Shown here in pieces: positions 7,786-59,187 of a stretch of DNA of 64,000 nucleotides. Position 1 is the first letter of the stretch; every line of letters begins with the position of its first letter. This DNA is from Porphyromonas cangingivalis (GTDB lineage: Bacteria > Bacteroidota > Bacteroidia > Bacteroidales > Porphyromonadaceae), in NCBI RefSeq assembly GCF_900638305.1, contig NZ_LR134506.1:496001-560000 (forward strand). The letters are read 5' to 3'. Both the position numbers and the translations under genes were made by a program. The notes below the pieces were generated by a model that was given only the letters and a program-made list of their open reading frames with translations, did no database searches and was not told the DNA's origin.

Positions 7786-7992
7786 TAAATTCTTTCTGAC
7801 ACATGGTGCATCATATCGATTAAAATCACAAATGATAACAATTTGTCTAAAGAGGGTATGGTATATGTTCTGAAATGATTTTAATGTGTTAAGCGATTAA
7901 TATACAGTTCTTTTTGGTGTGTGGTTCTTGTTTTATTTGGACGTGCTTTTCCTTGATTAGAGAATGACAAATGATACTTTTTTGTCCTTCAA

Positions 7993-8080
7993 TAGAATGT
8001 TTTCTGTCCTCAGACAGAAAACATTCTGTCGGCTGTCGGAGGATTTTCTGTCTTGCCTCAGATGAGTTTTGTCTTTGAGG
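7993..8080 (+). repeat. 22-bp repeat array, family A, locus 1 (four units)
   Basis: Units begin at 7993, 8015, 8037 and 8059, exactly 22 bases apart. Their first 16 bases are TAGAATGTTTTCTGTC, CAGAAAACATTCTGTC, CGGAGGATTTTCTGTC and CAGATGAGTTTTGTCT, matching the core CAGAA-N4-TTCTGTC with decay toward the end. Units 1 and 2 also form a 15-bp perfect hairpin (7994-8008 with 8013-8027). The array lies between divergent genes, ending 143 bases before fba. Confidence 0.8.
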
Positions 8081-13441: not shown

Positions 13442-13843
13442 GACTAAATTATATCTTTGATTATGAGATTCTTTTTTGTTCAAGTGACAAAGTTAGAAAA
13501 AACACTCAGGGCACAATTATACATATCATATTTATGCGAGAAGATAGTTGTATACCCTTAATTTGGAGTAACGAAAGCACCCATGCAAAAACAGGCTTGA
13601 TTATGAGCGAGATAAATGATGTAAATAAAGTCTTACGACTTGATATAACGAATCGTACGAATCGATACAACGAATCTTACGACTTTTATCGTTAAGTCTT
13701 ACGACTTGATTTGTCATCAAATCTATCTTGTTACCTTCTGAGGGAAGAATGTGATCAAAGCAATCCATATTTGTTTCCGATCTTGTTTATCCTCCGACAA
13801 AATTAAAAAGTCTGATAGATATAAAATTGTACAAATACGACAT
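13442..13843. other. Intergenic region with a 22-bp array, no gene seen
   Basis: This 402-base region lies between the start of the peptidase E gene and the end of the AraC gene, both on the minus strand. It has a four-unit family B array at 13628-13715. The remainder is AT-rich, with no open frame that looks coding, no recognised RNA gene and no clear terminator for the AraC gene. Confidence 0.5.
13628..13715 (+). repeat. 22-bp repeat array, family B, locus 1 (four units)
   Basis: Units begin at 13628, 13650, 13672 and 13694, exactly 22 bases apart. Their first 14 bases are AAGTCTTACGACTT, GAATCGTACGAATC, GAATCTTACGACTT and AAGTCTTACGACTT. The core AAGTC-TTAC-GACTT is an inverted repeat inside each unit. 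The array lies about 190 bases upstream of the peptidase E start. Confidence 0.8.
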
Positions 13844-21362: not shown

Positions 21363-21400
21363 AGGGGGTGTGTCAAAAAAGATTTTTTGACACACCCCCT
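21363..21400. terminator. Very strong hairpin, probable bidirectional terminator
   Basis: An 18-bp perfect palindromic stem (AGGGGGTGTGTCAAAAAA and its complement) with only a GA loop, starting 37 bases after the OstA-like stop. Its inner arm gives a T-run on both strands. It immediately precedes the family B array at 21406. Confidence 0.75.
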
Positions 21401-21405
21401 GTGGT

Positions 21406-21494
21406 TATTGAAAAAGTCGTAAGATGTGAAAAAATCAAATCTTACAACTTAGTGATGAGGGGTGTAAGATTTGATCCTGAACTTGTCCTTAAGT
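21406..21494 (-). repeat. 22-bp repeat array, family B, locus 2 (degenerate, minus orientation)
   Basis: Read on the minus strand, units start near 21494 (weak), 21472 (AAATCTTACACC), 21450 (AAGTTGTAAGATTT) and 21427 (ACATCTTACGACTT). Steps are 22, 22 and 23 bases. It is the most decayed of the family B arrays. It lies between the OstA-like gene and udk, ending about 40 bases before a candidate udk -7 box. Confidence 0.55.
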
Positions 21495-35729: not shown

Positions 35730-35817
35730 CAGAATGCGTTCTGTCAGGCTTCAGAAACAATTCTGTCGAGCATCAGAAACGTATCTGAAGTCCGACAGAA
35801 CCCGTATCGATCAGATA
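35730..35817 (+). repeat. 22-bp repeat array, family A, locus 2 (four units)
   Basis: Units start at 35730, 35752, 35774 and 35796, exactly 22 bases apart. The first 16 bases read CAGAATGCGTTCTGTC, CAGAAACAATTCTGTC, CAGAAACGTATCTGAA and CAGAACCCGTATCGAT. The first unit is part of the dyad GACAGAA-N4-TTCTGTC. The array lies between the ctpA end and the SUI1 gene start, both on the minus strand. Confidence 0.85.
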
Positions 35818-42007: not shown

Positions 42008-42095
42008 CAGAATGCATTCTGGTACGGGACAGAATGCATTCTGGCGGATGACATCGTCTGTTCCGCTCTCCGACAGAACAGATCGATACGTTTAT
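42008..42095 (+). repeat. 22-bp repeat array, family A, locus 3 (two perfect and two weak units)
   Basis: CAGAATGCATTCTG, a perfect 14-base palindrome, occurs at 42008 and 42030, 22 bases apart. The third position (42052) is highly decayed, and CAGAACAG appears at 42074, keeping the 22-base phase. The array ends 79 bases before the rhomboid start. Confidence 0.8.
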
Positions 42096-53873: not shown

Positions 53874-53961
53874 AAGTTATACGACCTTCGTCATCAAGTC
53901 AAACGACCTTTGTCATCAAGTCAAACGACTCTCGTAATTAAGTCAAACGACTTTTTTATCG
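53874..53961 (+). repeat. 22-bp repeat array, family B, locus 3 (four units)
   Basis: Units start at 53874, 53896, 53918 and 53940, exactly 22 bases apart. Their first 14 bases are AAGTTATACGACCT, AAGTCAAACGACCT, AAGTCAAACGACTC and AAGTCAAACGACTT. The dyad AAGTC-AAAC-GACTT parallels the TTAC-centred form of locus 1. Confidence 0.82.
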
Positions 53962-54049
53962 CGTTCTACAACCTGATTTCGTGGCCAAAATGCTTCTGTG
54001 CTGGTCGTCGGTTGCTTTCATGACAACCTTTCGGCTTGAATATGATGTA

Positions 54050-58855: not shown

Positions 58856-59187
58856 CCTTAATATATTAAATGATTTATTTGGACTACGATACGGATGTGC
58901 TTGTGAGCACATCCCTATTCCACAAAAATACAGATAATATTCAAGAAATCTTCTGTAAAATTAATTTGAAAATATGCTTTGGGATGATGTGTATATGGCT
59001 CTTTAGGGGTCTTTGACAGAAAGTGTTCTGTCTCGGGGCAGAATACTTTCTGTCGAACATTGGAAATATTTCTGTCGAGATACAGATACTCTCTGTATCC
59101 TATGCAACTTTTTGTGTCATTTGAGGGTTTTACAAGAAGGGAGACCTCCATGAGAGAGAGCCCATGAATAAAAGATTATAGAGAGTG
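58856..59187. other. Divergent intergenic region with a 22-bp array
   Basis: 332 bases between ispE and the GT3 gene. It holds the family A array at 59017-59104. No gene and no clear TAnnTTTG box were seen. Confidence 0.45.
59017..59104 (+). repeat. 22-bp repeat array, family A, locus 4 (four units)
   Basis: Units start at 59017, 59039, 59061 and 59083, exactly 22 bases apart. Their first 16 bases are CAGAAAGTGTTCTGTC, CAGAATACTTTCTGTC, TGGAAATATTTCTGTC and CAGATACTCTCTGTAT. Three units keep the TTCTGTC arm. The array ends 83 bases before the GT3 start. Confidence 0.85.

Follow-up and report, generated by a model that had tools for sequence, protein, structure and literature searches.

The arrays at 13628-13715 and 53874-53961 of the window (the whole 64-kb stretch analysed, bases 496001-560000 of the 2,404,857-base, ~2.40-Mb single-contig genome G000) are two of at least 85 loci of one repeat family, family B, which shares its architecture with a second family of unrelated sequence, family A. 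These elements are dispersed, are copied whole in a sister species, turn over between species and exclude members of their own family over several kilobases. We propose, with a probability of just under one half, that A and B are high-copy, non-autonomous intergenic elements of ~88 bp, composed of putative protein-binding dyads and kept apart by an exclusion resembling transposon target immunity.

Direct reading of the window confirmed that both B arrays consist of four units at an exact 22-bp step, built on the dyad AAGTC-N4-GACTT. On the plus strand, the units of the first array lie at 13628 (AAGTCTTACGACTT), 13650 (GAATCGTACGAATC), 13672 (GAATCTTACGACTT) and 13694 (AAGTCTTACGACTT), two of the four departing from the B consensus. 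The second, also on the plus strand, comprises AAGTTATACGACCT, AAGTCAAACGACCT, AAGTCAAACGACTC and AAGTCAAACGACTT with a T tract at its end, and a further weak outer unit may lie at ~53962-53985. The dyad centres had been given as TTAC or AAAC; both are present, together with one GTAC at 13628 and ATAC at 53874. The feature placed by the original prediction at 21406 is indeed a decayed B array, but its extent is 21414-21472 and its units (AAGTCGTAAGATGT, AAATCTTACAACTT and GGGGTGTAAGATTT, read directly) follow at steps of 23 and then 22 bp; it is absent among the matches listed for the B sequence model. Directly adjoining this decayed copy, at 21363-21404, is a strong inverted repeat, AGGGGGTGTGTCAAAAAA...TTTTTTGACACACCCCCT, which is likely a terminator. 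A segment of ~165-200 bp by the 13628 array (window 13464-13627) is duplicated, inverted and at ~81% identity, beside another B array at ~605.9 kb (G000:C1; L116:5048-5207), upstream of unrelated genes; it is the only such pair in our sample. Family A, with 22-bp units of the form CAGAA-N4-TTCTG in arrays of 3-4, occupies 7971-8072 (five units including weak ends), 35730-35809 and 42008-42087 (four units each) and 59017-59074 (three units). Autocorrelation of the window gave period 22 as its four best signals (0.82, 0.67, 0.64 and 0.62), and nothing else at periods 12-40 exceeded 0.61. The claim that two unrelated sequence classes follow one architecture was borne out: in both, a 14-bp dyad with a four-base centre (N4) and an 8-bp spacer makes up a 22-bp period repeated in 3-4 units.

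We studied G000 by sampled stretches together with whole-genome searches. A two-unit B pattern allowing at most 3 mismatches returned 74 matches per strand genome-wide, with 0 for the reversed control, and the two-unit pattern of family A returned 96. The sequence model search for B, in which the best 150 candidates were scored, yielded the 85 loci, a number that is therefore a lower bound. In a 560-kb sample made up of the window and 50 stretches fetched around B hits, and so mostly chosen around hits, autocorrelation gave 52 peaks at period 22, against 0-7 at other periods except the multiple 44; the 22-base signal is not restricted to a few loci. We mapped 52 B arrays in this sample, and all 16 of the remaining period-22 arrays belong to family A.

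The standard B element is ~88 bp long and contains three strong 22-bp dyads and a degenerate fourth, with A/T tracts as caps. In the aligned consensus an A tract precedes an inverted unit, two forward units and a T tract; the degenerate unit lies outside the A tract, has a consensus near AAAAAAGTCGTAGAAGG-N-GACAAAA and is clear at 25 array ends. Array ends in G000 fade through the weak unit with no sharp stop. The predicted four-unit layout is usual if this degenerate outer unit is counted, but of the 52 arrays 34 have three strong units and 9 have four. Array length does not vary freely, with 3-4 units in 47 of 53 arrays when the degenerate unit is included. A nine-unit, almost perfect B array at G000:812817 (L122:4918-5107) is the only long expansion in the genome. 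The arrays noticed earlier are thus real, but their copying as whole elements, their fixed unit order, their caps and their same-family exclusion had been missed. Across 169 B units the arms of the dyad vary independently, with mismatches that are not compensated, and a GT extension (AAGTCGT) occurs on exactly one arm in 156 units and on both in only 4; the arms of family A are likewise independent. Because the arms vary independently and the extension is one-sided, the dyads appear to act like protein half-sites and not like an RNA stem. Many G000 spacers contain CGTC, which is absent from the consensus of the sister species G001.

G001 carries its own orthologue of B, an 88-bp element whose letters have changed and whose units are AAGTTAGACAACTT; we found at least 149 copies of it. 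This element has a strict length and a fixed order (one inverted unit, then two forward units, then the weak unit), and conservation extends to its spacers as well as its dyads; the B consensus of G000 has the same order and caps. Pairs of G001 copies reach 97-98.7% identity over 69-75 bp with unrelated flanks, and the likeness between copies ends at the element ends (~88 bp). Since near-identical copies sit in unrelated flanks, the G001 elements have spread by copying. The starts of eleven G001 contigs lie no more than 330 bp from an element, which is what assembly breaks at near-identical copies would produce. Most of the ~33 G001 copies tested lie at loci without a B array in G000, and for one the matching G000 locus holds family A instead. 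Conserved position between the sister species was considered and rejected, with ~3 of 33 copies sharing a neighbour gene, roughly what we estimate for chance placement in eligible gaps. The difference between G001 and G000 is one of turnover, not of vertical retention of sites.

Copies of the same family are never close together. No two of the 85 B loci are separated by less than 6.5 kb, whereas the smallest gap in random sets has a median of 0.23 kb; no gap falls below 5 kb, where 13.6 +/- 3.1 were expected, and the coefficient of variation of the spacing is 0.65 compared with 0.98 for random placement. The G001 elements have a smallest gap of 3.6 kb, with 0 gaps below 3 kb against 15 expected; both locus lists contain the best-scoring candidates of the model search, and a few weak copies may be missing from them. 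A stricter null drew positions at random from intergenic gaps no shorter than 130 bp; it predicts 12 second B arrays within 5 kb of the mapped ones, and 0 were observed (P ~2e-6). Family A is present in 8 of 79 of those eligible gaps near B arrays and lies 77, 100 and 163 bp from B at three loci, and none of the 57 known A loci lies nearer than 4.5 kb to another. That A sits close to B when same-family copies never do indicates that the exclusion acts within the family. Three approaches, namely pattern search, direct scanning of the sampled stretches and the model search, gave concordant results, which makes an artefact of a single tool unlikely. As in target-immune transposons, then, the same element is excluded over kilobases (at least 3.6-6.5 kb) and other elements are not. 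Purging of close direct repeats by recombination was judged an unlikely cause of the spacing, because close same-family pairs are lacking in any orientation.

All 52 mapped B arrays are intergenic. By simple longest-frame gene calls, 26 lie between tandem, 13 between divergent and 13 between convergent genes, compared with 77, 26 and 18 of 121 background gaps. Convergent gaps should be poor in promoter operators, and divergent gaps poor in terminators, so placement in every orientation speaks against promoter operators, and also against terminators as the chief function. Tandem dyads two helical turns apart do resemble cooperative operators, and the arrays could in principle be promoter operators of a global regulator; yet the arrays are not rare in convergent gaps (13 of 52, background 18 of 121), their neighbours are mixed with only scattered ABC ATPases recurring, and related species either lack the family or carry it in altered form, all of which makes this reading very improbable. 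The original prediction also invoked paralogous DNA-binding proteins reading the families, a proposal that gained no support: no cognate gene was found beside the arrays, no gene family recurs beside them apart from the ABC ATPases, and we could match no count of paralogues to the number of families. If instead the elements acted at the RNA level, as hairpins or intrinsic terminators, an inverted unit paired with a forward unit beside a T tract would end transcription. Such a unit pair is present in many B arrays, a T tract can follow the G001 hairpins, and folding is far stronger than in shuffled sequences for the G001 elements and for the 13628 array (z -4.2 to -7.0 overall; -4.2 to -4.7 for 13628). 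However, folding is inconsistent between arrays, that at 53874 being no better than chance (z -0.5 and -0.8), ~42% of arrays have no opposed pair, the arms within units show no compensatory pairing, and divergent gene pairs flank arrays and background gaps at similar rates (13 of 52 and 26 of 121). We regard this explanation as improbable for the class, although some elements may act as terminators where they land.

Replication slippage producing ordinary minisatellites would account for local expansions such as the nine-unit array and the long array of G009 described below, and for centres that agree more within arrays (0.53) than between them (0.215), but it is already contradicted by exclusion within families and by a unit number, order, caps and period that stay fixed from one unrelated sequence to another, leaving it hardly credible. 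In the chief rival, selection maintains the arrays as binding sites, set at regular distances, for a nucleoid or chromosome-organising protein; each family would have its own protein, with which its set of sites co-evolves. The regular same-family spacing, the intergenic placement in every orientation, the independent half-sites and a species-wide concerted consensus with retained architecture are all in keeping with it, and selection for spaced sites would yield exclusion equally well. Against it, positions are mostly not conserved between the sister species, the family letters change fast, and spacers and unit order are copied along with the dyads, with near-identical copies in unrelated flanks; turnover and copied spacers fit spaced organising sites less well than mobile elements, and we consider such sites rather unlikely. 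For mobile elements with target-immunity-like exclusion, the following scheme can be envisaged. Each dyad would bind a protein dimer, and the 22-bp period, equal to two helical turns, would set successive dimers on one face of the DNA. Copies would be made by an enzyme acting in trans on the elements, its specificity shifting together with the element to give each species its own consensus, and a bound copy may keep others of its kind from inserting nearby, by analogy with the target immunity of transposons.

We searched for candidates for such an enzyme. Mobilisation by a RAYT was rejected: Y1_Tnp (PF01797) has 0 matches in G000 and G001, and neither genome holds a RAYT gene. No DDE_Tnp_1 gene and no integrase or tyrosine recombinase gene lies within 3 kb of any of the 52 mapped B arrays. 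The rve matches of G000 are few, in frames of 285-391 aa, and include no transposase of Mu or Tn7 size; G009, a genome with period-22 arrays, has no rve-domain gene of any size. Some congeners (G003:C99, G010:C4, G006:C21 and G007:C4) have rve-domain frames of 722-731 aa that may be Mu-like transposases, and in G001 an rve-domain gene of 253 aa (G001:C67:109342-109650) lies ~400 bp from an element. The ends of B are imperfectly inverted and A/T-capped, and no target-site duplication was demonstrated for the elements. No copies of the 53874 array were found in phages or plasmids.

Exact B or A arrays are almost absent from sixty relatives, but the plan common to A and B recurs in related species with other sequences. 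Eleven other sampled genomes of the family bear period-22 arrays of their own and a twelfth has period 23; in G004 the period is mainly 23. In sampled stretches, the period-22 units are GGTATTAG/CTATTACC in G006, GCAACTAAGC in G002, AAACGTGTTT and others in G009, CCACGTGG and GTTCC-N6-GGAAC in G014 and G021, and of several kinds in G024. Pooled over the genus (363 kb), period 22 gave 23 peaks and any other period at most 3, whereas six genomes from other families of the order (~374 kb) gave two period-22 peaks. Of 52 period-22 arrays, 13 showed significant dyad symmetry of the whole consensus unit; no other period tested had more than 2 such arrays. Some Prevotellaceae genomes also bear multi-copy 22-bp AAGTC arrays, and the class is therefore not confined to one family. 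One uncultured Prevotellaceae genome, CAMVDU01, has many copies of such an array with conserved flanks (contigs L046, L049, L053, L055, L061, L063, L070, L072, L078, L081, L087 and L094). G009 contains a far longer run (L164:1067-1800), with over 20 near-palindromic units of 22 bp in place of the usual 3-4. G014 (L167:5496-5679 and L171:6144-6376) and G021 (L172-L176) contain composite elements, palindromic overall, in which 22-bp CCACGTGG units flank 21-bp TTCCTCCGAAG units, as well as TTAGAGA minisatellites of 7, 14 and 21 bp.

The usual explanation for short repeats between bacterial genes is a RAYT or IS transposase. In the present case, high-copy elements that share one architecture and change their letters fast are carried by a whole bacterial family, and no enzyme of RAYT or IS type was found. 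We found no description of this class in the literature searched, and we would give even odds to a view of it as family-wide miniature elements, fixed rows of four 22-bp dyads whose same-family copies are held kilobases apart by a mechanism specific to the family, that form either a target-immune mobile system or a fast-evolving system of spaced chromosome-organising sites. The family-specific exclusion is a quantitative and directly testable signature, from which one would predict an undescribed transposition system endowed with immunity or, alternatively, a chromosomal binding system with spaced sites. Phage Mu and Tn7 have rows of 22-bp protein-binding end sites and exclude nearby insertion of the same element. 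A and B resemble them in their 22-bp rows and exclusion; however, their units are dyads and they have no coding part, and the MuA/TnsB-type transposase of Mu and Tn7 has no counterpart found in G000. With REP/BIME and CGTC palindromic repeats the elements share high copy number, short length, extragenic position, several families per genome and species specificity (PMC3733652, PMC2817692), and CGTC-tagged repeats too have no known transposase (PMC3733652, PMC2817692). REPs, though, are single hairpins or dimers with GTAG/CGTC tags, whereas A and B are strict 22-bp tandem units, untagged as a class, that exclude their own family in a genome without a RAYT. The class works like REP/BIME or MITE families, yet it failed the REP tests made here, B elements being neither single stem-loops with GTAG/CGTC tags nor accompanied by a RAYT. 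The nearest described element that we found is BrickBuilt, a MITE of Porphyromonas gingivalis that is intergenic, dispersed in 19 copies and internally tandemly repeated (PMC4596501). BrickBuilt has 1 to 23 copies of a 23-nt repeat, a leader, a tail and IS5-type inverted ends (PMC4596501), whereas A and B have 3-4 units of 22 bp in ~88 bp, with no conserved leader or tail. Parts of the class may have been seen before, because the BrickBuilt paper cites earlier, unlocated 22-nt tandem repeats in P. gingivalis W83 (PMC4596501).
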